DNA from: Deltaproteobacteria bacterium
Lineage (GTDB): Bacteria > Desulfobacterota > Dissulfuribacteria > Dissulfuribacterales > QOAL01
Direction: 5' to 3'
Assembly: GCA_015494395.1 (NCBI GenBank)
Contig: WGBG01000086.1
Coordinates: forward strand, 1 to 32,120
DNA length: 32,120 nucleotides
Part shown: positions 344 to 24,101 of the stretch, one piece after another
How positions within the stretch are numbered: the first letter of the stretch is position 1
Layout of the letters: every line of letters starts with the position of its first letter
Notes under the pieces: model-generated
The model's database searches: none
Told to the model about the DNA's origin: nothing
What the model saw: only the letters and a program-made list of their open reading frames with translations
Position numbers and translations under genes: made by a program

Positions 344-856
344 ATGAAAGTTGCAATAAGTGCTCAGGGAAAAGATGGCAGTTCAGCAGTTGATCCCCGT
401 TTCGGAAGGGCACCGTGGTTCGTTATAATGGATTCGGACAGTGGTGAGATAGTGGAGGTAATTGATAACCAGGCTGCGCAGGATGCAGCACACGGGGCAG
501 GTATCAATGCCGCAACCCGGGTGGCAGAGGCAGGGGTTCAGGCTGTACTTACCGGAAGGGTTGGCCCGAAGGCATTTACTGTTCTGGATGCTGCAGGAAT
601 AAAGGTTGTATCAGATGTCCAGGGCAGTGTGCAGCAGGCGCTGGATGCATTCAGAAAGGGTAGTGCCACCTTTGACTCCGGCCCATCATCAGACGGACAT
701 TCAAGCGGCCCGGGGGCTGTTTCCTATAAACCTTCTGCAGGTGCTGGTGCAGGAGCCGGAGGAGGCCGTGGAAAATGCGGTGGAAAGGGCCGTGGAGGCG
801 GCGGAGGCCGAGGCCGTGGAGGATGTGGATGCCGCGGAGGTAAACAGAATTCATGA
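344..856 (+). CDS. NifX/NafY-like (orange-protein family) cofactor-binding protein with Gly/Arg/Cys-rich tail
   Basis: The 170-residue protein has a dinitrogenase Fe-Mo cofactor biosynthesis fold (NifX/NafY/ORP family) in residues 1-105, with the usual MKVAISAQG start, the DPRFGRAPWF motif and a closing AGIKVV strand. Members bind small metal-sulfur clusters; the orange protein of Desulfovibrio binds a Mo-Cu sulfide cluster. Residues 120-170 form a low-complexity tail almost entirely of Gly, Ala, Arg and Lys with cysteines at 145, 161 and 163, which could bind metal or nucleic acid. The ATG lies in a good context (AGGGGTTTAGGTT upstream). The stop overlaps the next start (ATGA), so the genes are translationally coupled. 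Neighbours are MinD-like Fe-S ATPases and Mrp, as in Desulfovibrio orp loci. Family assignment is strong; the ligand is inferred. Confidence 0.85.
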   Translation: MKVAISAQGKDGSSAVDPRFGRAPWFVIMDSDSGEIVEVIDNQAAQDAAHGAGINAATRVAEAGVQAVLTGRVGPKAFTVLDAAGIKVVSDVQGSVQQALDAFRKGSATFDSGPSSDGHSSGPGAVSYKPSAGAGAGAGGGRGKCGGKGRGGGGGRGRGGCGCRGGKQNS

Positions 857-1710: not shown

Positions 1711-1711
1711 A

Positions 1712-2575: not shown

Positions 2576-2613
2576 ATTAAACAAACCTAATAAATATCCG
2601 GAGGAAGAGAATT

Positions 2614-3513: not shown

Positions 3514-3899
3514 TGAAGATAGCAATACCTGTTGAAAATGGTAAATTATGTTCCCATTTCGGGCATGCTCCCCAGTTTGCCTTTGTAAATGTTGAAGATG
3601 GCAAGGTGGCTTCAACCTCACTTGAGACCCCGCCTCCCCATGAGCCAGGCGTGCTTCCCCGGTGGCTCAATGATAATGGAGTTACCCATCTGCTGTGCGG
3701 CGGTATTGGAGGCGGAGCCGTAAATATCCTTCAGGGGGCCGGTATAAAGGTAATTGCAGGCCTTCAGCCTGTTGATCCTGCAGAGCTGGTTGAGGCATTT
3801 CTTGCCGGAAAGGTCCAGGGTGTTACAGGTGCCACCTGCGGTGGCCACGGTGAGGGGCATGGCCACGGTCATGGTTGTGGTGGTACCTGCGGTCACTGA
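3513..3899 (+). CDS. NifX-like cofactor-binding protein with His/Cys metal-binding tail
   Basis: A second NifX/ORP-fold protein of 128 residues. It begins MKIAIPVENG, has CSHFGHAPQFAF where the family carries its ligand-binding loop, and shows LCGGIGGGAV and AGIKVIAG near the end of the domain. The tail after residue 108 is rich in Gly, His and Cys (GHGEGHGHGHGCGGTCGH), an obvious soft-metal-binding sequence. I chose the ATG at 3513; a GTG one codon earlier is also possible. AAGGAGG lies upstream and the start overlaps the mrp stop, so translation is coupled. The two NifX-fold proteins in this operon carry quite different tails, which suggests distinct metals, partners or steps. Confidence 0.88.
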   Translation: MKIAIPVENGKLCSHFGHAPQFAFVNVEDGKVASTSLETPPPHEPGVLPRWLNDNGVTHLLCGGIGGGAVNILQGAGIKVIAGLQPVDPAELVEAFLAGKVQGVTGATCGGHGEGHGHGHGCGGTCGH

Positions 3900-3952
3900 T
3901 ATCCTGTTTATAGGCCTTGGTCAAGAAAGATACCATTTTGAGGTGACAAGAT

Positions 3953-4207
3953 ATGCCTATCTATGAGTACAGATGCGGAGAGTGCGGCAAGGTAAGCGAG
4001 GTGCTGGTTTTCAGCTCCAACCTTGATTCCGTTACCTGTCCTGACTGCGGTTCTGCAGACATGGTAAAGCTTATGTCTGCCACCTCTTCAATTACAGGTC
4101 AGCAGACACATAACCTTCCACGGCCAGGAGATACGGGCTGTTGTGGCTCAAGGCCAGGTGAGGCCCAGGGGTGCGCAGGGCCTGGTTCCTGCTGCGGAAG
4201 GGCCTGA
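3953..4207 (+). CDS. FmdB-family zinc-ribbon protein
   Basis: The 84-residue protein starts with MPIYEYRCGECGK and has a second knuckle CPDCGSADMVKL, a complete CxxC/CxxC zinc ribbon of the FmdB (putative regulatory protein) family in the first 45 residues. The last 20 residues contain several more cysteines in a Gly/Cys-rich tail (CCG, SCCG), resembling the metal-binding tails of the two NifX-like neighbours. It is the last gene before a strong hairpin terminator and is preceded by a GAGGTGACAAGAT Shine-Dalgarno region. FmdB was named for formamidase regulation, but most homologues are uncharacterised; a function here should not be assumed. Confidence 0.88.
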   Translation: MPIYEYRCGECGKVSEVLVFSSNLDSVTCPDCGSADMVKLMSATSSITGQQTHNLPRPGDTGCCGSRPGEAQGCAGPGSCCGRA

Positions 4208-4214
4208 TTACATC

Positions 4215-4240
4215 AAGGGCGGCTTAACCCGCCCTTTTCT
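4215..4240 (+). terminator. Rho-independent terminator of the NifX/ATPase/Mrp operon
   Basis: AAGGGCGG pairs perfectly with CCGCCCTT around a six-base loop, followed by TTCTT. It lies 7 bases after the FmdB stop codon. The DUF2400 start codon follows within two bases of the T-rich tail, so the hairpin occupies the place of a ribosome binding site for that gene. Confidence 0.8.
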
Positions 4241-4241
4241 T

Positions 4242-5051
4242 ATGTCCGGCACACCTCTGAAAGATTCCCTTGAACGTCTGTACAGGAAATACAACCACAG
4301 GCGTTACGTCCATCCTGATCCCCTTGAGTTTCTGTATAACTATCCTGATCCTCTGGATCGGGAGATAGTAGCCCTTGTTGCCTCATCCCTTGCCTACGGC
4401 AGGGTGAATCAGATACTTAAGAGCGTCTCCCGGGTCCTTGAACCAATAGGGCAGTCTCCAGCCCGTTTTTTTGCCTCAGGTAATGCAGCGGATTTTGCCA
4501 GACTGTATTCAGGGTTCAAACACAGGTTTACCACTGGAGAAGACATTGCTGCCCTTTTTTCAGGTATCCGTGCAGCCCTTGATGAGTATGGCGGGCTGGA
4601 GGCCTGTTTTGTCTCATGTTTCAGCCGGGCAGATGGGGATATAATAAAATCCCTGGGATTTTTTGTGGATTACCTGCGAAGGGCAGGGGGGCTGAAGAGC
4701 AGCTTCTTTCTACCGTCACCGGAGAAGGGCAGTGCGTGCAAGCGTCTTTTTCTTTTTCTGCGCTGGCTTGTCCGCTTGGATGATGTTGATCCTGGGGGAT
4801 GGGAAAGCATTCCTGCGTCAGCCCTGTTGATCCCGCTTGATACCCACATGTTTCAGATTGCATCTTCAATGGGTTTTGTATCTCTCAAGCAGGCCAATCT
4901 GAAGGCAGCTATTGAGATAACTAATAATTTCAAAATTATAAACCCTTCAGATCCGGTCAGGTATGATTTTGTGCTTACACGCTTTGGTATCAGGCAGGAA
5001 CTTGACAAAAAAACTCTTGTGGAAATTCTTCCATCCGGGCGTGTTTTATGA
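4242..5051 (+). CDS. TIGR02757/DUF2400 family protein
   Basis: The 269-residue protein matches the TIGR02757 (DUF2400) family, whose function is unknown. Hallmarks are YRKYNHRRYVHPDPLEF near the N-terminus, DREIVALVASSLAYGRV, a block around KRLFLFLRWLVR, and a C-terminal block around PLDTHMFQIA and PSDPVRYDFVLTRFGIR. The fold is predicted helical with sequence features reminiscent of HhH-type DNA glycosylases, but this is inference. I chose the ATG at 4242 because it matches the family N-terminus; an upstream extension would read through the FmdB gene in another frame. No Shine-Dalgarno sequence is visible, since the terminator hairpin lies immediately upstream. Confidence 0.85.
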   Translation: MSGTPLKDSLERLYRKYNHRRYVHPDPLEFLYNYPDPLDREIVALVASSLAYGRVNQILKSVSRVLEPIGQSPARFFASGNAADFARLYSGFKHRFTTGEDIAALFSGIRAALDEYGGLEACFVSCFSRADGDIIKSLGFFVDYLRRAGGLKSSFFLPSPEKGSACKRLFLFLRWLVRLDDVDPGGWESIPASALLIPLDTHMFQIASSMGFVSLKQANLKAAIEITNNFKIINPSDPVRYDFVLTRFGIRQELDKKTLVEILPSGRVL

Positions 5052-8166: not shown

Positions 8167-8575
8167 TTAGGAATCCTTGTGCAGGTTGTGAAAGCTTCTC
8201 AAAATGACATGACTTTTATTGAGACATACGGTAACCTGGAATGAGCGATTGTCGGATTTGCTGCATATCCGCGAAAGAGGAATTTCCATAATAGTCGGCT
8301 ATATGGGAATTCCTCTGACAAAGGAGATGCAGTGAATCCACCAATCCCGAAGGGTTTCAAAAGTTGAAGAGTATTATAGGTGTAACTCCTTTTGATATCG
8401 TATAAAATTATTTTTTCAAACTTTTGAAACGCTCAATTCAGGGGTAAATAGGTTTTGATAGGGCAAGCCCGGCTTTTGTTCATGGTATCTGCTGATATTG
8501 TTATCGGCAGGAGTATGACTGTTTGTAAAGTAAAATGATAACTGTATGGTAAAACTTGTAAAATAAGAGGGAAAA
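8167..8575. other. Gene-free divergent region between GGDEF gene and ftsH, with two inverted repeats
   Basis: This stretch carries no convincing gene. It holds two inverted repeats. AGAGGAATTTCC pairs with GGGAATTCCTCT at 8276-8316. GTTTCAAAAGTT(T)GAA recurs as its reverse complement at 8354-8430, flanking about 46 bases of A/T-rich sequence that includes TATAAAAT. A poor sigma-70-like promoter (TTGTAA, 16 bases, TATGGT) could lie at 8523-8550 for ftsH, but I give it little weight. The region must hold promoters for both divergent genes. Confidence 0.5.
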
Positions 8576-10513
8576 ATGGATAAAAAGGCTACCTTTTCCA
8601 TCTGGTATTATATTTCGTTATTTGGCCTGATCCTGATGGCTGAGGCGCTGTTCTTCTCTGGGTATTCAGCCAAGGAGATAGATTACAGCGAATTTCGAAA
8701 CAGGCTTGAGCAGAACAAGATAGAAACAGTTGTTCTTACAAAGGATTATATCTACGGGACCTTTATGCCGGAAAAGCCTGAGGCAAACCATATCCGGCCT
8801 GATAACCTGACACCTCCGGTCAGGCATACACCCTGGTATGTAAATCTTGATGGTCTTTTTGACTCCTTCAAGGAGGCCAGGGAAAAGGCAAAGGCATTAA
8901 AGGAACTGCAGTTTGTGGTTGTCAGGCTTAATGACCCGGGACTGGTGGAAAGGCTACAGAAACACGGTGTAAGCTACAGGGGCCGAATAGAGTCGAACTT
9001 TTTCAAGAACTTCATTGAAAACTGGATACTGCCTTTGGGCTTCATGTTCCTCCTCTGGACCTTTCTTATAAAGAAGATTGGAGGTGGAGGCCTGGGAGGT
9101 CCTCTCAATATTGGGAAGAGCAAGGCCAAGCTCTATGAAGACAGCAGCGCCCTAAATGTAAGGTTTTCTGATGTTGCCGGTGTTGACGAGGCTGTAGAAG
9201 AGACAAGAGAGATAGTGGATTTCCTGAAAAATCCGGGAAAATACACCCGGCTTGGCGCAAAACTTCCAAAGGGAGTGCTGCTTGTAGGTCCTCCTGGTAC
9301 AGGTAAAACACTTCTTGCCAAGGCCGTGGCAGGTGAGGCTGGGGTAGCATTTTATTCTATGGCAGGTTCTGATTTCGTAGAGATGTTTGTTGGAGTAGGG
9401 GCAGCCAGGGTAAGGGACCTCTTTAATGAGGCAAGGCAGAAGGCGCCGTGCATTGTGTTTATTGATGAGATAGATGCACTGGGCAAGTCAAGAAGCGGGC
9501 CTGGCGCACCTGTTGGAGGATTTGATGAGCGGGAAAATACCCTTAACCAGATGCTGGTTGAGATGGACGGGTTTGACGGCAGCATAGGTGTAATAATCAT
9601 GGGAGCTACCAACAGGCCGGAGGTCCTTGACAAGGCGCTTTTAAGACCGGGCAGGTTTGACCGTCAGATACTTGTTGACCAGCCTGACCGTAAAGGGCGT
9701 TATGAGATATTCAAGGTGCATACACGAAATATAGTGCTTGCAGATGACGTTGATCTTGAGGTGCTTGCTGCAGAAACCACCGGCTTTGTAGGTGCTGATA
9801 TTGCAAATATCTGTAATGAGGCAGCCCTCCTTGCATCAAGGGCAGGTCGAGAGGCCGTGACCATGCAGGATTTTCAGGATGCCTTTGAACGTGTAGTAGG
9901 TGGCATTGAGCGAAAGAGCAGGCGTCTTAACGAAAAGGACAGGCAGAGGGTTGCATGGCACGAGGCAGGACATGCGGTTGTTGGCTGGTTTACCCCCGGG
10001 GCTGATCCGGTGCAGAAGGTCTCTATTGTTCCCAGGGGGCAGGGCGCTCTGGGTTACACGCTTCAGGCGCCAGAGGATGATCGCTACCTGCTTTCAAAGA
10101 ATGAAATACTTGCCCGTGTCAAGGGGCTTCTTGGAGGGCGTGCGGCTGAGGAGATTGTTTTTAAGGAGATTTCAACAGGCGCATCAGATGACCTTGAGAA
10201 GGCGTGTGGCATGGTACGACAGATGCTTACTGTTTATGGCATGAGTGAAAAATATCCAAATATCTCACTTGTTGACAGAAGCAATATGGGCTTTCTGGGA
10301 GGCCCACCCCAGAGGGCTGAACACTCGGATGAGCTTGGACGTGAGTTTGACAAGGAACTCAGTGCCATAATTTCAAAATGTTATAGTGATGCCAAGGAAC
10401 TTTTGCACAGGAAACAGGAGAAGTTTGAGGCCCTTGCCAAGCGCCTGCTAGCCAAGGAGAAGATTGATACCAGTGACCTTGAGGAGATACTTGGAAAGAG
10501 GTCTGATGTATAA
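8576..10513 (+). CDS. ftsH: ATP-dependent zinc metalloprotease FtsH
   Basis: The 645-residue protein is a full-length FtsH, the membrane-anchored AAA+ protease that degrades misfolded and regulatory membrane proteins. Transmembrane segments lie at about 9-29 and 148-166 with a periplasmic domain between them. The AAA domain has Walker A GPPGTGKT at about 238-245, Walker [12 protein letters not shown], the pore loop MFVGVGAAR and the second region of homology [21 protein letters not shown]. The zinc protease site is HEAGH beginning at about 462. The N-terminal half contains a longer than usual periplasmic insertion ([11 protein letters not shown] region). It is monocistronic in this window, with AGAGGG before the ATG. 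A MITE-like repeat begins nine bases after the stop codon, and I see no separate terminator. Confidence 0.96.
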
Positions 10514-12037: not shown

Positions 12038-12928
12038 TTACTGTCCAGTAAGTGCCTTAAGCTGTTTCATCATCTCATTAAAGTCAGCAGGCGGTGCCTG
12101 GTTATTTCCAGGTGCCGGTGCAGAATTCTGTTCTACTCCCTGAACCGGTATATTCCCTGGGACTCCAGGCATGTTGGATGGAGGTGTAACCTGCATTTTT
12201 CCCTCAAGCAGCATCTTTATTGTTTCACGGGCACTGCGTCTGGCATGCTCTTCAGACTGTTTGTCATACTCCAGGCTTATGCCTGCAGGAGGCTGAAATT
12301 TATCATCAGGGACACTTGTCTCCTTAATCTCTGTGGCCACTGTTACATTATGTGCCCCCATCATGTCAGCTTCACTCTTCAAAACTATATCGGTCCCGGA
12401 AATTACCCAGCTCTTCATTCCCCCAAGGTTCATGACATCACAATCGTAGCCGAGAAATTTGGTGGCATGCTTTTTAATGTCTGCACCAGCATTGTTTGAG
12501 ATGGAGTAGCCCAGTTTTTCGCTGTTTCTGATGAGTTTTTTCTTGTCTGAAGAGGAGAGCCGTTCAAACTCCTCCTTCATGTATTTTGTTGGATTTACGG
12601 ATTTGGTACCGGTTCCTTCGGTAAAGTTGATTGAATAAATCCAGTCAGGAGTGGTGATTTCAGCAGTTTTTGTGTGCTGTGTAAAGCCCATGATGGTCAT
12701 GGATGTATCCCTGTAGGTGGCACGGTACCTGCCATAGTCCTTGATATAGGTGGTCTGTGTACCGTTTTCCATGCCAGTAATTTTGTATTTTATCACAGCG
12801 CTCTTGAAGGGAAGTTTCAAATCCCAGGGGTTCTGGGTGGCACTTACAGAAGATGCCAGAAACATGAACAAAAGCAAAATGGTACAGAATGTGAAATTGA
12901 ACGGATAGTGGCAAGTTTTTTTAATCAT
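12038..12928 (-). CDS. Secreted protein of unknown function
   Basis: The 296-residue protein has a classic signal peptide (MIKK start, hydrophobic TILLLFMFLASSV, cleavage near SSVSAT at about 30). The mature part begins with a beta-rich segment (PFKSAVIKYKITG, TTYIKDYGRYRATYRD) reminiscent of DUF4412-like secreted proteins that bind or report on surface state, but I cannot name the family firmly. Residues from about 245 to 285 are Pro/Gly/Asn-rich and probably disordered, and the end FNEMMKQLKALTGQ is helical. AAGGAGG precedes the ATG, which overlaps the upstream gene's end by eight bases, so the two are co-translated. The stop codon abuts repeat copy B. Confidence 0.8.
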   Translation of the reverse strand: MIKKTCHYPFNFTFCTILLLFMFLASSVSATQNPWDLKLPFKSAVIKYKITGMENGTQTTYIKDYGRYRATYRDTSMTIMGFTQHTKTAEITTPDWIYSINFTEGTGTKSVNPTKYMKEEFERLSSSDKKKLIRNSEKLGYSISNNAGADIKKHATKFLGYDCDVMNLGGMKSWVISGTDIVLKSEADMMGAHNVTVATEIKETSVPDDKFQPPAGISLEYDKQSEEHARRSARETIKMLLEGKMQVTPPSNMPGVPGNIPVQGVEQNSAPAPGNNQAPPADFNEMMKQLKALTGQ

Positions 12929-13835
12929 TTGAACCTCCTTGTTTTGTCTTCACGTTATACATGTTGAACTGTTTGGATTTAGCCGCCATTAAGGAGAGAT
13001 TGATAAGCGAGCCTGCTGCATACCAGGTGGAGTCAGGAAACGGTATGCCTTGAGATCTCCTTCCAAACCCTCCTCTTTTACTTCGGCATCCACGAAGAAA
13101 TCCTGTAGTCTCCTCCATGCAGGCAGGTTTTGTGCCAAGAAGTCTGTATGACTCAAGTGCGTGATATATATTTTCTGTATAGGATGTGGTTCCTGGGAAA
13201 AATCCGTAACCCCCATCAAAATTCCGGCACTTTTCAAGCCATGAACGCCATGTTCCTGATAAAGAAGCCTTGGCTGTATCCCCACAGTTTTGGGCAAGGT
13301 ACAGATACATGCGAAGTTCCTTTACTGATCTTGCATCATGTTCGCAGAAGCTTGAGCAGTTTGAAAAACTGTCCATGCTTTTTTTGATCATGCGCAGGGT
13401 GCGGATTCCGTAAAAGGTCTCATCAGGGGCATGAACCGTTTTTATCCTGTCATTTATAAAAGTTACGATACTATCCAGTGATACATGCCATTTTTCACTG
13501 CTGTCCGATGCAAGGGAGAGTTTGTCTGCACAGAACAGAAGTTCATAAAGCCTTTTTGAATTGTTCCAGTCCTGCTGCAGGCGCAAACTGATAAACTCCA
13601 TGTGAGATGAAATGTCGATTTCACCCGGAAACTCCCAGTGATCCACATCTGTGCCTTGTAAAAAACGGTCAAGCTCAAAAAGACATCTTACTGCATGATA
13701 TGTATCTTCAACTGTGGCAGGCATATAACGGCCTGCACTGAATCCCCCGGTCTTTTGTTCTCGCTGCAGGTAGAACCATACGATTCCTTCAGCAGAGTCA
13801 TTTAACAGTTTTTTGGCATTAGTAAACTCTGTCAT
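12921..13835 (-). CDS. Prenyltransferase/squalene-cyclase-like alpha-alpha toroid protein
   Basis: The 304-residue protein has repeated helical units with the sequence look of protein prenyltransferase beta-subunits and terpenoid cyclases: KTGGFSAGRYMPATVEDTYHAVRCL at the start, then FDGGYGFFPG, ENIYHALESYRLLG, KRGGFGRR and DSTWYAAGSLINL near the end. No DDXX(Y/F) or zinc-ligand pattern of true enzymes is obvious, so it may be a binding or structural toroid. I chose the ATG at 13835; a TTG at 13934 would add 33 residues read through a fragment of repeat family 1, and I reject it. The gene overlaps the downstream secreted-protein gene by eight bases and follows the TIGR03790 gene. Confidence 0.72.
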   Translation of the reverse strand: MTEFTNAKKLLNDSAEGIVWFYLQREQKTGGFSAGRYMPATVEDTYHAVRCLFELDRFLQGTDVDHWEFPGEIDISSHMEFISLRLQQDWNNSKRLYELLFCADKLSLASDSSEKWHVSLDSIVTFINDRIKTVHAPDETFYGIRTLRMIKKSMDSFSNCSSFCEHDARSVKELRMYLYLAQNCGDTAKASLSGTWRSWLEKCRNFDGGYGFFPGTTSYTENIYHALESYRLLGTKPACMEETTGFLRGCRSKRGGFGRRSQGIPFPDSTWYAAGSLINLSLMAAKSKQFNMYNVKTKQGGSND

Positions 13836-13845
13836 GATAAATGGC

Positions 13846-13881
13846 TTAAAGCTCAAAGCTGAAAGTTCAAGGCTCAAAGTA
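13846..13881 (+). repeat. Solo end fragment of repeat family 1
   Basis: GCTCAAAGCTGAAAG followed by TTCAAGGCTCAAAGT matches the terminal segment of family 1 copies (compare 11824-11850 and 15361-15380) without the rest of the element. It lies in the short gap between the TIGR03790 gene and the toroid gene and is the source of a spurious in-frame N-terminal extension. Confidence 0.7.
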
Positions 13882-13943
13882 TTTGAAGCCGGCTCGGGTT
13901 CTGCTGGTTCCCAAACTCCGGATTTGGAACTCAAAATGTTTTT

Positions 13944-15305
13944 TTACTTGAGCCTCATACCCCTTGCAGGAAAGGGCCTGTACAGCGGATCAGCAACAAG
14001 CACCATCTGCCATGAGGTAAATGGGATGCTGTACCAGTACGCCTCAGCCACGCCTGAACCATTGAATATGAGCGAGGCAAAAAACATGTCAGGAAACGGA
14101 AATGCCTGTACATAAGGTTCATACACAGGCCCCAGTGTTGCTGCTGCACCCTTTTCCAGCATCTTTTTGCACCACACCCTGCTGTCTTTTTTTCTGAGAG
14201 TAGTACATTCCGCGCTGGCAATATGGTACCCCACTGCGCCCCTTTTCCAATTAAATGCATCAACGTATTTGGCAAGGCTGTACCAGCCGCAGTAAATTGC
14301 TGCATTATCGCAGGTGCCAGGCTTGAACAGTTCCTGTGTGCTGTCTGTTACAACATTAAGTCTTCTGCTCTTTCTGACAAGCTCTGCGGCATGGTGAATG
14401 GCAGCATCATAAAGGGCGTAGCCTGAAAGCCCCTTTTTCTCAGAAGGGTTTTTCCATCTAGCATCAAAGTAGGCAGTTCCATGCAGCCCGCCCCTCTCCT
14501 CTGTTGCAACTGAGTCATCAATAATGCGCCTGACTGTGGCTGCATCAGGCCCGTCAAGCCTGCTGACCATGATTATGTCCGCAGGTTTTATGGTTCCCTG
14601 TCCTTTGGAATAGAGGCCGAACAGGGGATTTGCCACCCATCCGGTCAGCGGGTATGGCCCTGCCATTACCAGAGAGAGCTCTGAATCCACTGATGCCCGG
14701 GTATTTTTCATGCCAAGCATGTTGATCTGCCTGTTTATGGCGGCAATTTTTTTGTTTATGATTTTTATGTCCCTGCTGGCGTTATCCCTGTCTTTATTAT
14801 TTTTAAGACTTTCCCGTTTTTTCTGGAGTTTTTTCCTCAGTCCCTTTAGTTTTTCAAGTTTTTTCCTGTCCTGGCTGTTTTCAGGGCCCTGCCTTATCTT
14901 TAGCGGAACGCCCTGCATGAGCACAAGGCACCTGATGCTTGCTTTATCTCTTTGAAGCTCTTTGAGCGCCTTTTTTATGGGGGAGGCTATTGAGTTTTTA
15001 TATTCTGACCTTGAGCAGCTCTCACCTGTTACTGTCTCAATGGTTATAAGGTTTTTCCAGGGGATAAACCGTTTCTGCATGTAATAGAGGGCGAGAGATT
15101 TGCTCTCAGGGTGTGCGGTATTTGCTACAACTGCAACGTCCGATGGCTGAAGAAAGAGGAGTGAGGCTGCACAGGCCGGAGACAAAAAGAGAAGCCACTG
15201 TGCAGCCAGGATGCATATTATGAAGACCAGTTCCCCTGACAAACCTGTCAGGTGGTATCTGGGAGGCAGGTCCGGGGGGGTGATATGTGAGTAACTGTAA
15301 CTCAT
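13944..15305 (-). CDS. TIGR03790 family protein
   Basis: The 453-residue protein matches TIGR03790, a family of unknown function found mostly in environmental anaerobes and exosortase-bearing bacteria. An N-terminal hydrophobic segment (LVFIICILAAQWLLFLSP, about residues 27-45) is followed by the family signature VAVVANTAHPESKSLALYYMQKR, LVLMQGVPLKI, MVSRLDGPDAATVRRIIDD, YCGWYSLAKY and the C-terminal MVLVADPLYRPF. An inserted Lys-rich coiled coil of about 60 residues (LEKLKGLRKKLQKKRESLK region) interrupts the first domain. The start is tentative because no Shine-Dalgarno site is visible and the codon lies inside a palindrome. The protein probably faces the periplasm. It is the first gene of a three-gene minus-strand set. 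Confidence 0.87.
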   Translation of the reverse strand: MSYSYSHITPPDLPPRYHLTGLSGELVFIICILAAQWLLFLSPACAASLLFLQPSDVAVVANTAHPESKSLALYYMQKRFIPWKNLITIETVTGESCSRSEYKNSIASPIKKALKELQRDKASIRCLVLMQGVPLKIRQGPENSQDRKKLEKLKGLRKKLQKKRESLKNNKDRDNASRDIKIINKKIAAINRQINMLGMKNTRASVDSELSLVMAGPYPLTGWVANPLFGLYSKGQGTIKPADIIMVSRLDGPDAATVRRIIDDSVATEERGGLHGTAYFDARWKNPSEKKGLSGYALYDAAIHHAAELVRKSRRLNVVTDSTQELFKPGTCDNAAIYCGWYSLAKYVDAFNWKRGAVGYHIASAECTTLRKKDSRVWCKKMLEKGAAATLGPVYEPYVQAFPFPDMFFASLIFNGSGVAEAYWYSIPFTSWQMVLVADPLYRPFPARGMRLK

Positions 15306-16162: not shown

Positions 16163-17203
16163 GTGCTTACTTCAGTAAATCCGCTAATAATCTCTTTGCT
16201 GTCCCGGACTGCTGGAAACTCCAAAAAGAGTTTTTTTCTTGTTTCTGTCCTGGCAGTCATCATGTCACTGCTGCAAGTACCATCCGTTGCAGCTTTTTCA
16301 TCGTCCAATTCCTGGGATAATTCCAGGAGCAAATCCCTGGGGAGCGGTGCGTCATCTTCTGGCAAGCTTTCCCATGACCCCATTATCAGGGAAATTATAT
16401 CCCTTGACCATGAAAAAAAGAAGATGGCTTCGCAACCGGGGCAGGGTAAAGATGATTTGTCCGGCAATGATGCCAGGTATCTAAGGTATCTTGATTCACG
16501 AATAAGGGAGCTTTGTGCCCGGGCTGTATCAGAACATGGCAAGGCATTTATTGCGTCACTGCCATGTCCTCCTCCTGATTCCATGCTTCCAGGTTATGAA
16601 ACTCCTGTACTTCCATCCACCTCCCAGAGGATAAGATCGGCAGACAGGGAGCTTGTGGAGTCACTTGGCAAGTTTGACGAGTTTCTTGAAGGTGAACAGA
16701 AAAAGGCTGCAGCTGACAGGCCCAGAGATACAGAAGCCGTTTATGCAGGTGGTGGGGGAGCAACAGGTGGAGCAGGCTCAGGCGGTGAGGGCGAGTATCA
16801 AAATGGTTCTGGTGCGGACTCAGGAACTGGTGGGCAGCAGGGTGGTGAGGAGTCTGTTCAGAAGACTGCCTCTGGTGCAGGAGGTGAACAGGGACAGCAG
16901 GGGGCAGTTGGCAGAGAAGGGGCACAGACCCCTGGCAGGCGTGTTGCTCAGAATGGTTCAGAAAGAAAGGGTACTGGAAGCGGTGACGGGCATTATGGAA
17001 CACAGCAGGCTGGAACGGGACAGAGAGGCATTTCAGGGCAGGGTTCCAGAGGAGCTTCTGATCAGGGGGCAGCCAAATCCATTTATGAGGATGATGATAT
17101 AGTTGCCAGGCAGCTCAGAGAGGCTGCAGAAAGGGAAACAGATCCTGAGCTTAAGAAGAAGCTTTGGGAAGAATACTGGAAGTATAAAGAGGAAAACCGT
17201 TGA
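16163..17203 (+). CDS. Secreted Gly/Ser/Gln-rich protein with charged helical tail
   Basis: The 346-residue protein has a signal peptide (SKKSFFLVSVLAVIMSLLQV, cleavage near SVAAF at about 45). Residues 50-190 are mostly helical and charged. A low-complexity region at about 195-305 is dominated by Gly, Gln, Ser and Ala. A compact charged helical tail (DDDIVARQLREAAERE, DPELKKKLWEEYWKYK) ends the protein; its order suggests it is the conserved functional part. The start is a GTG without a visible Shine-Dalgarno sequence; a TTG 11 codons later is an alternative. It is the first of four co-oriented genes, and its stop overlaps the next start, so it probably works with the lipoprotein encoded downstream. 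No known family is recognised. Confidence 0.75.
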   Translation: MLTSVNPLIISLLSRTAGNSKKSFFLVSVLAVIMSLLQVPSVAAFSSSNSWDNSRSKSLGSGASSSGKLSHDPIIREIISLDHEKKKMASQPGQGKDDLSGNDARYLRYLDSRIRELCARAVSEHGKAFIASLPCPPPDSMLPGYETPVLPSTSQRIRSADRELVESLGKFDEFLEGEQKKAAADRPRDTEAVYAGGGGATGGAGSGGEGEYQNGSGADSGTGGQQGGEESVQKTASGAGGEQGQQGAVGREGAQTPGRRVAQNGSERKGTGSGDGHYGTQQAGTGQRGISGQGSRGASDQGAAKSIYEDDDIVARQLREAAERETDPELKKKLWEEYWKYKEENR

Positions 17204-18630
17204 TTCCAATGATTCGAAGCATTTTTCATAAGCCAGTTAATGCCTTTTTTGAAAGGTTTTTTCAAGGCTCATGCTGTTCAGTGCTCCTGCTGGTACTTTG
17301 TGCCTTTGGTGGATGCGCAGGGCATGGCAGTGTGGCTGTACAGGAGGATGTCTCCGCTGTTACAGCCAGAAGCGAGATCCCGGAAGATCAGCTCCTTAAT
17401 GTTACCATTCAGGTGTTTGATCCCGGTGAACTTCCTGAAGATGAGGAAGAACGTGCCGGGCTTTCCCAGGAGATAAGGAATGCAGAGGCAATTTTTATTC
17501 CTGTACAGCTAAAGGATACGCTCCAGAATACAGGATACTGGGGTTCAGTATGGGTTATTCCCCGGCAGGAGCTTCAAGGCGGAGAAGGTGGAGATACAGA
17601 GAAACAGACAGAAACCAGGTCATCAGGTGATGACAGTGATCAGGGGCAGGCGGAGCTTAATATTGCCGGCAGGATTGAATATTCAGATGGAGAAAAACTG
17701 GTCCTGACAATAGTTGCCAGGGATGCCACCAATCGGATCTGGCTTGACAAGACCTATTCGGAAGAGGCGAAACCGGAAGACAGGCAGGGCATAAGACCTG
17801 AAAAAAAGGATGTATTTCAGGACATGTTTAATGCCATTGCCAATGATCTGATTAAGTTTCGGCAGCAGTTAAGTCCTGAAAAGATAGACAGGATAAGGAA
17901 AATTTCAGAGCTTCGTTACGCTGCTTCCATGGAAGAGGATGTGTTCAGCCGGTATTACAGGCAGGATGAAGACGGTATTTACCAGCTTGTGTCCCTTCCT
18001 GCAAAGGATGACCCCATGCTTGCCCGTATAAGGGCGATACGTGCCAGGGATGAGATGCTTATGGACACACTTAGCAGTTATTATGATAGCTCCTATGCCA
18101 GGCTCTGGACTCCTTACCAGAACTGGAGAAAGAATCGTGCTGAGGAACTTCAGGCAATACGAAAGATCAAGGATGAGGCATTTACTAGGCAGGTTATGGG
18201 GTTTGCTGCAATTGCAGGAGCAGTGGCACTGGGGGCCATAGGAGGTGAGGATGCCAGCAGGATGCTTGCCCCGATAAGGGGGATCATGGCAGCAGGAGGG
18301 GCTGCGGCTATTTACAGCGGCTATGAAAAGCGCAAGGAGGCAGAGATGAACGTGGAGGTCCTCAAAGAGCTTGGGGAATCCTTTGCCGCTGATGCAACGC
18401 CCCTTGTTGTGGAAGTGCACGGAGAGACAGTCCGCCTTACAGGAACTGCCAGGGAGCAGTATGCAGAGTGGCGCAGGCTTTTAAGGAAGATTTATCATGA
18501 AGAGAGGGGAGCAGTGGATGATCTGCCTCTGATCCTTGGGCATGAGATCAATACTGACGATGCCGGAATGGATGATAATGCCTCACATGTTAACATCCCC
18601 TCTGAACATGCAGTTGATCAGTCATATTAG
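17200..18630 (+). CDS. Outer-membrane lipoprotein of unknown function
   Basis: The 476-residue protein has a lipoprotein signal ending in the lipobox FGGC at about residue 39. Residues 60-215 form an alpha/beta domain that includes AELNIAGRIEYSDGEKLVLTIVARDA, recalling the LpoB/CsgG-type lipoprotein fold, but the match is only suggestive. A charged helical region (EELRAIR-like, 235-330) follows, then a short Gly/Ala hydrophobic hairpin-like stretch (GFAAIAGAVALGAIGG to GIMAAGGAAAIYSGYE). A final domain contains LVVEVHGETVRLTGTAREQ. The TTG at 17200 has GAGG spaced well and overlaps the upstream stop (TTGA); the ATG at 17209 is an alternative. The hydrophobic C-terminal hairpin could insert in a membrane. 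Confidence 0.75.
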   Translation: MIPMIRSIFHKPVNAFFERFFQGSCCSVLLLVLCAFGGCAGHGSVAVQEDVSAVTARSEIPEDQLLNVTIQVFDPGELPEDEEERAGLSQEIRNAEAIFIPVQLKDTLQNTGYWGSVWVIPRQELQGGEGGDTEKQTETRSSGDDSDQGQAELNIAGRIEYSDGEKLVLTIVARDATNRIWLDKTYSEEAKPEDRQGIRPEKKDVFQDMFNAIANDLIKFRQQLSPEKIDRIRKISELRYAASMEEDVFSRYYRQDEDGIYQLVSLPAKDDPMLARIRAIRARDEMLMDTLSSYYDSSYARLWTPYQNWRKNRAEELQAIRKIKDEAFTRQVMGFAAIAGAVALGAIGGEDASRMLAPIRGIMAAGGAAAIYSGYEKRKEAEMNVEVLKELGESFAADATPLVVEVHGETVRLTGTAREQYAEWRRLLRKIYHEERGAVDDLPLILGHEINTDDAGMDDNASHVNIPSEHAVDQSY

Positions 18631-18642
18631 CACTATTCTTTT

Positions 18643-20202
18643 ATGAGTAATAATCCGCAGCTCGTACCGCCGGATTTTTTAAGATCTCCGGGCAGTAAGC
18701 CACCCTCAGATAAAAGCGGAAAACAGAGGCTTATATGGTTTTTCGCAGCACTGGTGCTTGTGCTTGCAGCAGTCGCAGCCTATGAGCTGTTGTGGCTTCC
18801 CCATGTGATTGAGACCCGGAACAGTGCTGATGAGTCCATTTCTCACAAAAAGGATGCTACTGCCTCCAAGACGAACTTCCCTGAACAGCAGGAAAAAGAT
18901 GCAGGGGGAAATGCCGCGGCCCCTGTTCAAACCGTAAAAAGTGAAAGCGTAAAAGATGAAGCTGGAAAAGATGAGGCCAGAAACCTTGCCTTTGAGATGC
19001 GTCAGAAATGGTACGAGAAAAAGGCTGAGGCTGAGCTTGAAAACATGCCTGTTTACGGAGATGCGGATTATGCCCGTGCCTTTGATGTGGCATCAAAGGC
19101 ATCAGAACAGATGGAAAGGCAGGAGTTCAGCCAGGCAGTATCCTCTTTCAAACAGGCAATAAACATAATTTCCCGGATTCGCGCCTCTCGCCAGGATATC
19201 CTTTCGGCATCAATTAAGGCAGGCAGCCAGGCACTTGAAAATGCAGATGGGCCTGAAGCAGCCAGACATTTCAGAAAGGCACTTGCAATTGACCCTGATA
19301 ATGCCGTTGCCCTTAAGGGTATAAAACGGGCTGAGACCATAGACACTGTCCATGCAATGGTATTAAAGGGCAGGGCGTTACTTGAAAAAGAAAAGGATTT
19401 TGATGCCGCCCAGGCTGTGTTCAAAAAGGCCATTGAGATAGATCCGGAATTTTCCACCGCACGTGATTTGCTTGAACAGGCAAGGGAGCAGGCACAACGG
19501 CAGCGGTTTTCAAAGCTGATGGGAAGGGCAATGTCTGATCTTGCGGCATGCAGATATAACTCTGCCTCCAGGGCTGTGGCAGAAGCCCGTGCCATATTTC
19601 CTGATGATAGCGCTGCAAGGGAACTTTCCACAAGGATTGAAACAGAACGCAAGGCAGCAGAATTCAAGCGTTCTTTGCAGACAGCCCGGCATGCCTTAAG
19701 CAAGGAACAGTGGCAGCAGGCTATCCAGGGTTTTCGCATGGCACTTAAGCTTGATCCCCTTTCTGTTGAGGCAAAACATGGACTTTCTCAGGCTGAAAAA
19801 TCCTTGGCACTCCAGAATGCCCTTCAGGATATAGTCAGAAATCCGTGGCGCCTGAGTGATAAGGGACCTCTTGAGGATGCAAAGGCTGCGGTTCGTGCAG
19901 CACTTAACGTCAGCAATGCAGGGCCTGAGTTAAAGAGGTTCACGGCAGAAGCTCAGGATATTTTGAGAAAGTGGCAGAAAAAGGTCACAGTGGTCTTTGT
20001 TTCTGACGATGCTACTGACGTTGTGATATACCGCCTTGGTCGGCTTGGAAAGTTCAAGAGACGAAGCTTAAGGCTTAGGCCAGGCATTTATACTGTTTCA
20101 GGCATGAGAGAGGGATACAGAGACGTGCTGTTGAAGGTCAGGATTCCTCCCGGTGCAGATGGAAAGCAGATAATGGTTAAGTGTACGGAGAAGATTTTGT
20201 AA
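18643..20202 (+). CDS. Single-pass membrane protein with TPR-like repeats and C-terminal PEGA-like domain
   Basis: The 519-residue protein has a short cytoplasmic N-terminus, one transmembrane helix at about 29-52 (LIWFFAALVLVLAAVAAYEL) and a charged linker. Helical TPR-like repeats span about 145-400 (for example FSQAVSSFKQAINI, ARHFRKALAIDPDNAVAL, AQAVFKKAIEIDPEFSTA, WQQAIQGFRMALKLDPLS). A beta-rich C-terminal domain at about 447-519 (VVIYRLGRLGKF, LRLRPGIYTVSGMREGYRDV) resembles a PEGA/peptidoglycan-associated domain. The topology puts the TPR and C-terminal parts in the periplasm. It lies 12 bases after the lipoprotein gene with no clear Shine-Dalgarno site and is followed by the FHA-PEGA gene. 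It likely scaffolds an envelope complex. Confidence 0.82.
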   Translation: MSNNPQLVPPDFLRSPGSKPPSDKSGKQRLIWFFAALVLVLAAVAAYELLWLPHVIETRNSADESISHKKDATASKTNFPEQQEKDAGGNAAAPVQTVKSESVKDEAGKDEARNLAFEMRQKWYEKKAEAELENMPVYGDADYARAFDVASKASEQMERQEFSQAVSSFKQAINIISRIRASRQDILSASIKAGSQALENADGPEAARHFRKALAIDPDNAVALKGIKRAETIDTVHAMVLKGRALLEKEKDFDAAQAVFKKAIEIDPEFSTARDLLEQAREQAQRQRFSKLMGRAMSDLAACRYNSASRAVAEARAIFPDDSAARELSTRIETERKAAEFKRSLQTARHALSKEQWQQAIQGFRMALKLDPLSVEAKHGLSQAEKSLALQNALQDIVRNPWRLSDKGPLEDAKAAVRAALNVSNAGPELKRFTAEAQDILRKWQKKVTVVFVSDDATDVVIYRLGRLGKFKRRSLRLRPGIYTVSGMREGYRDVLLKVRIPPGADGKQIMVKCTEKIL

Positions 20203-20289
20203 GAAGTATCTACTCACAGATTTCTGCATGTGAGGCGTTGGCGGGGACTTGCAGTACATGGGGTACGCCTTTGCCTCTTAAGTATGTAT

Positions 20290-20306
20290 GGTGCGCATTG
20301 CGCACC
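20290..20306 (+). other. Perfect GC-rich hairpin between the TPR and FHA-PEGA genes
   Basis: GGTGCGC pairs with GCGCACC around a three-base ATT loop, followed by GTAAAATTCTGTTTT. The T-run is interrupted, so this is at most a weak or partial terminator. It may attenuate or protect the transcript inside the operon. Confidence 0.5.
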
Positions 20307-20347
20307 GTAAAATTCTGTTTTCGGATAAACATACCCTTTAGATAAAA

Positions 20348-22744
20348 ATGCACCGCTATTTTGAAATAATCAGAGATGGTGCCGCCACAGGTCCCAAAAA
20401 ATATGCTCTCCCCCTTACTGTAGGAGGCTCTGAGACAAGTACCATCAGGATTCAGGGGGTTGATCACGATGTCTGCTACATTGGGGAGGATCATGGTCAC
20501 CTTTTCCTGCAGCCGGTTTCAGACAGTGTGGAGATATTTCATAACCGGGAGCGGGTAAGGGCATCGGTGTGGATAAAATCAGGGGATGTTACCCGTATTG
20601 GCAGTGAAGCCATTGTTTTTGATATTTCCGGTGACGTGGTAACAATCAGGGTGGTGTCTTCGGAAAAGGATGGCCACAAATTACAGGCAGAGGCCCAGGC
20701 ACCCCCGGGTGAACCTTCCCTTGCATTAAACTCGCTTCCCCGTGTTTCTGCAGATGATTCAGGGCATCAAGAGAGATACAGGCCAATTGTGGTAAAAATT
20801 GCTTTTTTCCTGTTGCCGTTCCTTTTGGCCTGCGCACTTGCGATCATTTTTGCCCGGCCATTTTACCTTAATATCACGCCGGTGCCTGATTCAATATCCT
20901 TCAGTGGTCCTTTTCCAGTGCTAGAGATTTCAGGCCGCTATGTGGGGCTGCCCTTCAGAATCAGTGTTAAGGCTCAAAAGGAGGGGTATAACCCCATGAA
21001 TGCAGTTATAGACCTGGGGGAAAACAGAAAAGAGTTCACCCTGTCCATGACCCCTCTTCCTGGAGTGGTGGATTTTACCTCTGAGCCTGTTAATGGCGCT
21101 GACATCAAAATAGACGGTGCATCAGTTGGGGTTACACCTGTAAAGGGGCTTGAAGTTCCTGCCGGAAGGCACACAGTCAGGGCAAGTCTTGAAAAATACC
21201 AGGATGCTGAACAGGAGATTATTGTACAGGGAAAGGGTGTTCATCAAAGCTTTCATTTCAGTCTTGAGCCTGCCTGGGGTTATCTGAACGTGATATCCGA
21301 GCCATCCGGGGCAAGAATTATGGTAGATGGGCAGGAGTCTGGAATGCGTACTCCGGCACTTCTTGAAATAGCTGAAGGAAGTCACGATATTCTCCTCTCC
21401 CTTCCGGGGTACCTTCCCTATACGTTCAAGGTTTCCATATCTTCAGGGGAGCACAAAACGCTTGAAAAAATCAAATTAAAACCTGTTCCTGCCACGCTTG
21501 AAATTACAGGAGAACCTGAGGGTGCGCTTGTAGCCATTGACGGGGTTTTTGTTGGCAAACTGCCTCTTGAAAAAGATGTGGAGGCAGGGAAAACCCATGA
21601 GATTACAGTTACTGCCCCAGGCTTTGCATCACAGGGCAGGAGTGTTCAGGTTAAGTCCGGTGTGAGACAAAATATAGAGTTTAAGCTCAAGCCTGTGTAT
21701 GGAACTATATTTGTCAGAACTGAACCTGAAAGGGCAGAGCTTTTTATTGACGGCAGGAAGCAGGCCAGAAATGGGGGTAAATTCCGGCTGAGGGCAATGC
21801 CCCACGTGATTGAGGCAAGGGCAGATGGATATGTAACTGCCTCAAGAAAGATAAACCTGCTTCAGGGAGGTGTCCAGACTGTATCCTTACGGCTTAAGAC
21901 CCTTGCTGCTGCCAAAAGGGAGAAGGCTCTTAAAAAATCGTCTGTCTTTGCGGGAAAGATGATTCTCATTACGCCTCGCCCGTTTATGATGGGTTCATCC
22001 AGACGGGAGCAGGGACGAAGGACCAATGAGGTGCTTCGTAAGGTTGTGCTTTCAAGACCTTTTTTTATAGGGGCATACGAGGTAACAAACAGTGAGTTTC
22101 GGCGTTTCAAGGCAGGGCATTCATCAGGGAGTTTTTCCGGCCATACCCTCGATGGTGACAAGCAGCCTGCTGTAAATGTCACCTGGGAAGATGCAGCAAG
22201 ATATTGTAATTTTCTGTCTGGGAAACAGGGCCTTCCCCTGTTTTACAGGGATGATGGAAAGACAATAACTGTCTCACAGCGGCCAAATACAGGATATCGC
22301 CTGCCAACAGAGGCAGAGTGGGCATATGCCGCAAGGATAGAGGGCAATACTTCTCCGGCTAAATATCCCTGGCTTGGAGCATATCCCCCAAAGGATAAAA
22401 GCGGAAATTTTGCCGATGAATCAGCCCGTGGAGTGCTGGCAGTGATTATAGACGGTTATCACGATGGATATGCGGTAAGCGCTCCTCCTGGAAGCTTCAG
22501 CCCTAATCGTGCAGGTCTGTTTGACATAGGCGGCAATGTTTCTGAATGGTGCCATGATTTCTATTCTCCTGCCTATTCATCCCAAAATAATGACCCTTTG
22601 GGCCCGGAGTCAGGGACCCATCATGTAATACGGGGTTCAAGCTGGCAGGACAGTTCTATTACAGAGCTTCGCCTGAGTTACAGGACTTTCGGGGATAAGG
22701 CGACGGATTTTGTGGGATTCAGGATTGCCAGGTATGCAGAATGA
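20348..22744 (+). CDS. FHA-like / transmembrane / PEGA repeats / FGE-sulfatase-like fusion protein
   Basis: The 798-residue protein has four parts. Residues 1-105 form an FHA-like phosphopeptide-binding beta domain (LPLTVGGSETSTIRI, DHGHLFLQPV). A transmembrane helix at about 148-168 follows. Residues 178-516 hold about five PEGA-type beta repeats, each with a signature such as VDFTSEPVNGADIKIDG, LNVISEPSGARIMVDG or LEITGEPEGALVAIDG; the first is degenerate. Residues 533-797 are a formylglycine-generating-enzyme-like (SUMF1) domain with TGYRLPTEAEWAYAAR, FDIGGNVSEWCHDFY and RGSSWQDSSITELRLSYR. In true FGEs the last motif carries the catalytic cysteines; here none are present, so the domain is probably a binding module. 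The layout couples cytoplasmic phospho-signalling to the periplasm. Confidence 0.9.
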   Translation: MHRYFEIIRDGAATGPKKYALPLTVGGSETSTIRIQGVDHDVCYIGEDHGHLFLQPVSDSVEIFHNRERVRASVWIKSGDVTRIGSEAIVFDISGDVVTIRVVSSEKDGHKLQAEAQAPPGEPSLALNSLPRVSADDSGHQERYRPIVVKIAFFLLPFLLACALAIIFARPFYLNITPVPDSISFSGPFPVLEISGRYVGLPFRISVKAQKEGYNPMNAVIDLGENRKEFTLSMTPLPGVVDFTSEPVNGADIKIDGASVGVTPVKGLEVPAGRHTVRASLEKYQDAEQEIIVQGKGVHQSFHFSLEPAWGYLNVISEPSGARIMVDGQESGMRTPALLEIAEGSHDILLSLPGYLPYTFKVSISSGEHKTLEKIKLKPVPATLEITGEPEGALVAIDGVFVGKLPLEKDVEAGKTHEITVTAPGFASQGRSVQVKSGVRQNIEFKLKPVYGTIFVRTEPERAELFIDGRKQARNGGKFRLRAMPHVIEARADGYVTASRKINLLQGGVQTVSLRLKTLAAAKREKALKKSSVFAGKMILITPRPFMMGSSRREQGRRTNEVLRKVVLSRPFFIGAYEVTNSEFRRFKAGHSSGSFSGHTLDGDKQPAVNVTWEDAARYCNFLSGKQGLPLFYRDDGKTITVSQRPNTGYRLPTEAEWAYAARIEGNTSPAKYPWLGAYPPKDKSGNFADESARGVLAVIIDGYHDGYAVSAPPGSFSPNRAGLFDIGGNVSEWCHDFYSPAYSSQNNDPLGPESGTHHVIRGSSWQDSSITELRLSYRTFGDKATDFVGFRIARYAE

Positions 22745-22866: not shown

Positions 22867-23676
22867 TTACTTAGCTTTTTTCAATCTATATATCAATCCG
22901 GCAACAAGGCCTCCTGACAGCAGAAACACAGAGCCTGGTACCGGTACAGGATTTGCAGGGCTGGTTTCAAATTTCACTATATTGTATTCCGCCCCTCCAA
23001 GGCTGCCATCGAAAAAGGCACCCCATGCTACCCTATTTGCATGTACATTGTTAGTAGAACCTGTGTATCCGCTTAATACCTCAACTCCGTCAACCAGCAG
23101 ACTTGCAGCATCGTTTTGGAATATCAAGGTATATTCATGAAAACCACCCGTTGGAACAATGTAATTCGTTCCAGTAGAGTGATCCCCTGCCCAGCCATCC
23201 TGGAGTATTACTACCGGATTATTATCATTGTCTAGGCCGAAATCCATGCGGTAGGCAGTTGTATCTGTGGCAAATTCCACCATGACAGCCATATTTGGGG
23301 TTTTATAATTCTCCAGAAGCTCACCTGACAGGGGTGGTGCTCCACTTCCATCTAACAGGTTTATCCTGGCACTCAACGCCCAGCCAGTAGCAGCTTCTGC
23401 TTTTTCAGTGTCGGTGAGATAGTAGAGATAACGTTTTGAAGAACCGAAATTTGTGCTTTTGTCATCAATAAACCATACACTGGTGGTTGGATCTCCCGTG
23501 TCTCTTGCCCCTTCCGATAGGCCGGCATTTCCAAATCCGTTTCCTGCCCAGCCTTCAGTGATTGGATCATTTGCACCTTGATGAAGTGCAACCACTGATG
23601 CCATGGCCGCTGACGACATGCATGCGAAGACAAGTAAGGTACCTAAGATTAAAGCTTTTTTGATGATTGAATTCAT
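22867..23676 (-). CDS. PEP-CTERM sorted surface/extracellular protein
   Basis: The 269-residue protein has a signal peptide (MNSIIKKALILGTLLVFACM, cleavage near AMAS) and a beta-rich LamG/concanavalin-like mature region with many Gly, Asp and Asn residues. The C-terminal PEP-CTERM sorting signal consists of VPVPGSVFLLSGG, a hydrophobic stretch and a basic RLKKAK end. Such proteins are processed by exosortase and usually go to the extracellular matrix; no exosortase gene is in this window. The correct start is the ATG at 23676 with GGGAGGAG upstream. A longer in-frame extension to 23898 is not credible because it would read through the promoter. Transcription is probably sigma-54 dependent. 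Confidence 0.93.
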   Translation of the reverse strand: MNSIIKKALILGTLLVFACMSSAAMASVVALHQGANDPITEGWAGNGFGNAGLSEGARDTGDPTTSVWFIDDKSTNFGSSKRYLYYLTDTEKAEAATGWALSARINLLDGSGAPPLSGELLENYKTPNMAVMVEFATDTTAYRMDFGLDNDNNPVVILQDGWAGDHSTGTNYIVPTGGFHEYTLIFQNDAASLLVDGVEVLSGYTGSTNNVHANRVAWGAFFDGSLGGAEYNIVKFETSPANPVPVPGSVFLLSGGLVAGLIYRLKKAK

Positions 23677-23727
23677 AGAACACTCCTCCCTTTTATGGTT
23701 AATAAAAAATAAAAATATATATGAAAA

Positions 23728-23743
23728 TGCAAAAAATATGCCG
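23728..23743 (-). promoter_or_regulatory. Sigma-54 (-24/-12) promoter of the PEP-CTERM gene
   Basis: Read on the minus strand the sequence is CGGCATA-TTTT-TTGCA, matching the consensus TGGCAYR-N4-TTGCA at all but the first position, with the strict GG-N10-GC spacing. Transcription would start about a dozen bases downstream, leaving a leader of roughly 40 bases that contains the ribosome binding site for the ATG at 23676. PEP-CTERM genes in several bacteria are controlled by the sigma-54 activator PrsR, which fits. Confidence 0.75.
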
Positions 23744-23757
23744 TTGTGTTTTTTAGA

Positions 23758-23782
23758 TTTTTGGCCTGGATTATGCCAAAAA
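23758..23782 (-). promoter_or_regulatory. Inverted repeat upstream of the sigma-54 promoter
   Basis: TTTTTGGC and GCCAAAAA are perfect eight-base arms with nine bases between them, about 15 bases upstream of the -24 element. It is a candidate binding site for an activator of the PrsR/NtrC type, though closer to the promoter than most enhancer sites. Confidence 0.45.
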
Positions 23783-24101
23783 ACTCCCTGAATGGTAAAA
23801 ACGGTTTGAAAATGAAAATAAATTCTGTTGATTTTCTTTCTTTTTACCCATCGGTCATTAGTAAAGACAGCAGAGCGTGTCAGTGCTTGAACCGACATGG
23901 CACTTTAAGATATTTTGATCGAAATGGGAAGTATGCTTTTTTTAAGAAAAAATGGGAAATGTCGAAAAGAAAAAAGCATGGTAAATCAATAAATTGTGTT
24001 ATTTTAATCTCTTGCATGACTGGACAGGCGAGAGTGTAATGATAAGATTAAGAAACAGCCTCCAAGGATTGTAAGGGTAACAGAATGGAAAAAGGGAGAT
24101 C

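Follow-up and report, generated by a model that had tools for sequence, protein, structure and literature searches.

A conserved eight-gene set that probably encodes an ion-driven motor of the bacterial cell envelope

What do four co-oriented genes for envelope proteins, known from no named system, build together? The question is raised by P1 to P4, which lie at positions 16163 to 22744 of contig WGBG01000086.1 from a Deltaproteobacteria bacterium (assembly GCA_015494395.1); the 32,120 nucleotides analyzed from this contig are called the window. A sequence-only reading had described four co-oriented genes with parts in the cytoplasm, inner membrane, periplasm, and outer membrane, and had recognized no named system with this set. 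The four genes do form a conserved unit, its parts predicted to lie in all four compartments, and no name for the set was found, but they are half of a system: P1 to P4 make up the first half of an eight-gene operon that is conserved and continues P5-P6-P7-P8. The back half lies beyond the window and includes a protein of the MotA/TolQ/ExbB family, a relative of proton-driven motor proteins. The set therefore likely builds a machine that pushes or turns envelope parts, and its meaning shifts from a static to a likely motor-driven envelope complex. We put the probability that the eight genes build an ion-driven motor spanning the cell envelope, with P1 to P4 as its front half, at about 0.6.

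Gene order and co-occurrence

Scanning genome contigs with an alignment of P2 gave 69 P2 loci, whose record titles are mostly Desulfobulbaceae, Desulfuromonadales, Deltaproteobacteria, and Gammaproteobacteria. As determined from stop-to-stop frames and profiles, P1-P2-P3-P4 occur in that order at 48 of the 69 loci and all eight genes are in order at 39; many of the remaining loci are contigs cut short. Thirty-seven loci extend 8 kb or more beyond P2 on its downstream side, and in 35 of these P2-P3-P4-P5-P6-P7-P8 are ordered on one strand. The exceptions were L020, in which P3 was not recognized, and L070, in which the set is interrupted. P5 was found at 36 of the same 37 loci, and the P1 profile matched at all 56 loci with at least 1.5 kb upstream of P2. 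Because the profiles of P1 to P8 were built from these same loci, the counts test order, not homology. The sequence-only reading would have been weakened if the four genes rarely co-occurred; their order is conserved across loci. Named strains with the complete set include Desulfopila sp. IMCC35008 (L039), Desulfogranum marinum DSM 2058 (L047), and Geothermobacter hydrogeniphilus HR-1 (L057).

We tested for co-occurrence of P2 and P6 in three genome samples. Among 60 relatives of the window's genome, P2 was present in 10 and P6 in 9, with both in 9 and P2 alone in G017; thus, P6 was found in 9/10 P2-positive versus 0/50 P2-negative genomes (Fisher one-sided P = 6.8e-10). Among 395 genomes of the phylum, P2 was present in 9, P6 in 10, and both in 8, with P2 alone in G417 and P6 alone in G185 and G423 (8/9 versus 2/386; P = 2.9e-14). 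Among 369 genomes of the class of G450, P2 was present in 27, P6 in 35 at E ≤ 1e-20 (31 of these at E ≤ 1e-65), and both in 26. P2 alone was found in G641, and P6 alone in G544, G669, G768, G770, and G773 (26/27 versus 5/342; P = 8.1e-34). Four weak P6 matches (E values of 3e-26 to 5e-21) were counted as negative in the class sample; if they are positive, the latter fraction is 9/342. This sample includes its center, G450, and G445, both reached via P2 loci, and without them the former fraction is 24/25. The relatives and phylum samples overlap (G000 and G008 to G010 are among the positives, and the window's genome is in both), and the Fisher P values overstate the association because the genomes are related by descent and not independent. 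The alignment searches scored four (alignment A1, of P2) or six (A3) first-look candidates per genome where more existed. P6 lies within the locus at 44 of the 69 P2 loci; the remaining 25 include 18 whose genomes have it elsewhere. The set is rare and scattered, being present in about 2% of the phylum sample and about 7% of the class sample.

Several of the discordant genomes of the class could be followed to their loci. In G641 (L176 6373-9305), P1, P2, and P3 are reduced to fragments spread over several frames, none of P4 to P8 was seen in the 16 kb inspected, and a search of the genome found no P6; this looks like joint loss or decay of the whole set, although sequencing errors are possible. 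In G768, counted as P6 only, the contig is cut just beyond P3. G770 (L174 1941-12724) has a variant cluster of P1, a P3-like gene, P4 without the FGE domain, P5, P7, P8, and P6, plus extra unassigned genes, and no P2 match. G669 (L173 7302-8801, minus strand) has a P6 homolog (E = 1e-96) with neither P7, P8, nor other partners in 14 kb.

The window's genome keeps all eight parts as open frames, dispersed over three contigs: P1 to P4 in the window, P6 to P8 on C169, and P5 on C183 (Table 1). On C169, P6 to P8 are inside the contig, flanked by genes for an NAD-dependent epimerase and rubrerythrin. On C183, the start of P5 overlaps the end of the preceding gene, presumably that for NAD kinase; a profile scan found no P5 in the window, on C169, or on the G001 contig. 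P4 still adjoins P6 in G008 and G011, which belong to the window's family. In G001, the second genome of the genus, the contig with P6 to P8 is short and breaks off immediately upstream of P6. In a comparison of 28 sets, L020 and L024 rank in the nearest four for each of P2, P4, P6, P7, and P8, a pattern that the breakup of a single inherited set would produce. On contig C1 of G449, the chromosome of a metagenome-assembled genome, the set is interrupted, with parts more than 1 Mb apart (L070 8904-11979 and L168 5312-9538). On the far side one open reading frame matches the end of P3 and then the end of P4; the interruption is a rearrangement or an assembly error.

These cases bear on whether the operon holds one machine or two independent modules that share it in most genomes, a passive envelope scaffold (P1 to P4) and a separate motor (P6 to P8). 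Three observations weigh against the single motor and for separate modules: the different contigs of P1 to P4 and P6 to P8 in the window's genome, with P6 to P8 among unrelated genes; the distance of P1 to P3 from the remainder in G449; and the P6 of G669 without partners. Nevertheless, co-occurrence is near perfect in all three samples, dispersed sets included, the order is kept in 35/37 loci, and the remnants in G641 look like joint loss. We consider two modules unlikely.

The back half and its likeness to ion-driven motors

The signs of a motor are in P6, P7, and P8, which are approximately 268, 365, and 333 amino acids long; P5 is small, looks secreted, and has a tail like ADxxVxFPxDI. P6 of the window's genome matches PF01618 (MotA/TolQ/ExbB family) with 53.4 bits against a cutoff of 22.9. 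Median identity of P6 over 29 sets is 66%, the highest of the five members compared; values for P2, P4, P7, and P8 are 39 to 58%. P7 and P8 each have a basic N-terminal stretch followed by one transmembrane helix, with SFLD inside the helix in the window's genome. Among full-length rows, every P7 (37/37) and every P8 (36/36) has both the transmembrane Asp and a VWA-type metal-site motif, DxSxS (frames open at the locus end or shorter than 200 amino acids are excluded from these counts). P7 barely passed the VWA_2 cutoff of 27 (27.3), and P8 missed it. Neither protein had a Pfam or NCBIfam match to an ExbD/TolR or MotB profile at E ≤ 0.1. A protein-database search with P8 found at least 8,000 proteins at E ≤ 0.001, not necessarily all P8; among the 120 matches listed, identity was at least 62%, and those with a name were called hypothetical or VWA proteins, bar one evident misname.

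These features resemble those of the 5:2 motors (MotAB, ExbBD, TolQR, GldLM, and AglRQ/S), as described in a review (PMC9389320). In both, the wheel protein belongs to PF01618, the wheel and axle genes are adjacent, and the axle proteins have a short basic N terminus, one transmembrane helix with an invariant Asp, and a predicted periplasmic domain. The transmembrane Asp of MotB binds a proton, and a similar Asp is predicted in TolR and AglQ/S (PMC9389320). From what is known of the family, P6 would be the ion-conducting wheel and P7 and P8 the axle, with the N terminus inside. In contrast to the known motors, there are two axle-type genes per complete set, each of the VWA type, and the equivalog models are not reached. 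The review leaves open whether the paired Agl axle homologs heterodimerize (PMC9389320), and since two axle-type genes are adjacent in every complete set, the question is raised sharply here too. The words VWA, von Willebrand, and PEGA do not occur in the available part of that review, VWA and PEGA do not occur in PMC12505986, and "VWA domain" is absent from the known-motor papers among the matches listed.

With such a motor family, P6 to P8 could also be a divergent Tol-Pal or Ton system, that is, a TolQR/ExbBD variant that energizes outer-membrane import or stability, with P2 in the role of TolB. However, P6 matched the TolQ, ExbB, and MotA equivalog models weakly and far below their cutoffs (17.3 and 32.2 bits for TolQ, whose cutoff is 221), no match to TolA, Pal, TolR, ExbD, or TonB was seen among the scanned proteins, and two VWA-type proteins stand in place of one TolR/ExbD. 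This makes a Tol-Pal or Ton variant quite improbable. The MotA/ExbB-type subunit is also shared with Zorya antiphage defense, in which a proton-driven motor would be the sensor, and P6 weakly matches ZorA (17.4 bits, E = 4.2e-4). Against this, P1 to P4 and P6 to P8 had no PADLOC match to ZorB at E ≤ 0.01, their other PADLOC matches amounted to a weak LmuB match for P8 (E = 0.0025), no nuclease match was found in family scans, and the set is a fixed eight-gene envelope set. A Zorya-type role is thus very improbable.

The front half and a possible mechanism

The proteins that a P6-P8 motor would drive are given with their features in Table 1. NCBIfam assigns no name to any of P1 to P4, and PHROGs gave no informative matches. 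The structural comparison lists are nonexhaustive, and the absence of a family from them is not evidence. P1 has a weak DUF6381 match, below the Pfam cutoff, at its conserved C-terminal tail.

Table 1. Features of the P1 to P4 genes in the window and of P5 to P8 elsewhere in the same genome
Feature	Position	Strand	Description
P1, Gly-rich secreted protein	16163..17203	+	346 amino acids, GTG start; hydrophobic segment at residues 24-42 (open reading frame, hydropathy)
P1 conserved C-terminal tail	17093..17200	+	Residues 311-346 (DDIVARQLREAAE...); by eye, translations of several loci
P2, lipoprotein	17200..18630	+	476 amino acids
P2 lipobox-like stretch	17302..17316	+	Ends at Cys39; Cys in 30/30 aligned rows, then Ala or Ser
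P2 alpha/beta domain	17332..17874	+	Residues 45-225; resembles FlgT, PelC, CsgG, TolB N-domain
P3, single-pass membrane protein with TPRs	18643..20202	+	519 amino acids; TPRs predicted periplasmic
P3 C-terminal domain	19984..20199	+	Residues 448-519; PEGA-like by eye, without Pfam match
P4, FHA-transmembrane-PEGA repeats-FGE-like protein	20348..22744	+	798 amino acids
P4 FHA fold	20348..20659	+	Residues 1-104; predicted cytoplasmic; without phosphothreonine-site Arg
P4 transmembrane helix	20789..20851	+	Residues 148-168; model, hydropathy
P4 chain of small beta domains (PEGA)	20855..21892	+	Predicted periplasmic; Pfam PEGA, 148.4 bits, 4 stretches; model
P4 FGE-like domain	21956..22732	+	Residues 537-795; without catalytic cysteines; relatives include PorK/GldK
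P6	C169 (L101) 1580-2389		E = 4.7e-124
P7	C169 (L101) 2411-3511		E = 1.0e-121
P8	C169 (L101) 3508-4503		E = 1.7e-140
P5	C183 (L179) 8431-8682	-	83 amino acids; ends ADQAVAFPVDI

The P2 family has at least 513 proteins at E ≤ 0.001; among the 120 of these matches listed, those with a name are always "hypothetical protein." P2 itself had no Pfam match. In the alignment of 30 rows taken from the 120 listed proteins (at least 513 having been found), Cys39 and 61 further columns are invariant. P2 shares the fold of its residues 45 to 225 with FlgT, PelC, CsgG, and the TolB N-domain, a likeness seen in fold; unlike them, it also has a pair of long helices and, at the C terminus, a small domain. Residues 331 to 349, between the two long helices, are a Gly/Ala-rich hydrophobic stretch that is conserved among homologs and might touch the membrane.

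A likeness to CsgG and PelC could mean that the set exports or assembles a surface fiber or polymer, with P1 as cargo, P2 as the outer-membrane exit ring, and P6 to P8 as the power source. P1 is secreted and of low complexity, and the hydrophobic stretch of P2 could enter the membrane. Yet the conserved part of P1 is its charged C-terminal tail, which seems docking-like rather than a fiber repeat, and the set includes no fiber or polysaccharide gene. We regard such an export machine as unlikely.

Under the envelope-spanning motor, P4 would be the central piece of the front half. Both its PEGA and FGE-sulfatase matches, like the TPRs of P3, are above the Pfam cutoff, and its best NCBIfam match is GldK/PorK (E = 6.5e-33), whose equivalog test it fails, with 114.6 bits against 350. 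In the P4 alignment (A4; 33 rows of 45 full-length proteins, 44 relatives plus that of the window), Arg is present in none of the 33 rows at position 27 of the FHA domain, which we take to be that of the Arg in the Gly-Arg phosphopeptide motif. P4 has the FHA fold but lacks the phosphothreonine-site Arg. The sequence-only reading held that FHA implies control by protein phosphorylation, and with the site Arg absent such control is unsupported. There is a precedent in PrgH of the type III basal body, whose structural FHA domain was judged an unlikely phosphothreonine binder (PMC3635987).

Two other roles for P4 were rejected. As an FGE enzyme it would need cysteines, but at the columns of residues 759 to 779, aligned to the FGE cysteines, Cys is found in 0/33 rows. 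Its C terminus resembles the variable protein of a diversity-generating retroelement (2y3c), but the stretch is strongly conserved across the 33 rows; no search for a reverse transcriptase was made.

The layout of P4 is like that of the PrgH/YscD inner-membrane ring of type III systems, namely, a cytoplasmic FHA domain with a poor phospho-site, a membrane anchor, and small periplasmic domains (PMC3635987); the likeness is of layout only, and PEGA and FGE domains replace the ring-building motifs. With the type IX PorKLMN/GldKLMN systems the set shares a noncatalytic FGE-fold protein encoded with a motor (PMC12421860 and PMC12635249), although here the FGE domain belongs to an FHA-PEGA protein, predicted to be in the inner membrane, and not to a lipoprotein. 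No NCBIfam match to GldL, GldM, or GldN was found among P1 to P8 at E ≤ 0.1 (Sov/SprA was not searched for). By the tests made, the set falls outside Tol-Pal, the type IX core, and Zorya, although its likely mode of action is that of a 5:2 motor with an envelope assembly coupled to it.

Gene content, order, co-occurrence, domains, and the conserved Asp and metal-site motifs are observed; that the members form a single complex is inferred, as are its stoichiometry and work. In a 5:2-type motor, P6 would be the membrane wheel, and P7 and P8, probably as a P7-P8 pair, the axle, each with the invariant Asp in its one transmembrane helix and a VWA-type domain in the periplasm. The flow of ions past both Asp residues would set the axle turning or rocking and so move the VWA heads, which would act on P4, helped by the TPR protein P3. 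Going by likeness, P4 may be the inner-membrane hub, with its cytoplasmic FHA fold, one transmembrane helix, a PEGA stalk, and a noncatalytic FGE domain for docking in the style of PorK. P2 may be the outer-membrane anchor or ring, being a lipoprotein with a fold known from ring-forming outer-membrane proteins, and P1 and P5 may be secreted linkers or clamps attached by their conserved C-terminal tails. The likeliest uses would be at the outer membrane, with a surface component moved or exported, or the envelope tensioned.

More tentatively, the set may be a new class of trans-envelope machine. In it, a MotA-like wheel would turn an obligate pair of different VWA-headed axles. The metal-site heads of these axles would hold and let go of a PEGA/FGE ring at the inner membrane, thereby driving a ring of lipoproteins in the outer membrane, with the eight genes carried by scattered desulfobacterial and gammaproteobacterial lineages. 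No description of the eight-gene set was found in the open-license papers of PubMed Central; judged from sequence data the system seems widespread, and it is apparently unstudied. Only a small number of ion-driven envelope motors are known in bacteria, and a further one, with more than 500 P2 homologs and cultured strains, would be a clear target for structural work and genetics. If the motor is real, it would test heterodimeric 5:2 axles, left open for Agl (PMC9389320), and the repeated recruitment of the noncatalytic FGE fold as a motor docking hub.

Neighboring genes

At L054 (2465-8987), the set is immediately 3' of genes that by eye resemble dnaA-dnaN-recF-gyrB; the upstream genes at L045 and L076 match those of L054 in length only. 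In the window, outside the set, a TIGR03790-family protein (298 bits) adjoins a prenyltransferase-toroid protein (13944-15305 and 12921-13934, minus strand). A cluster at 344-3899 encodes three P-loop NTPases between two dinitrogenase-cofactor-type proteins; 4Fe-4S matches were found in two of the NTPases. The protein encoded at 22867-23898 on the minus strand has laminin-G-like and PEP-CTERM matches, both below the cutoff, and because of the latter a PEP-CTERM sorting system is possible.

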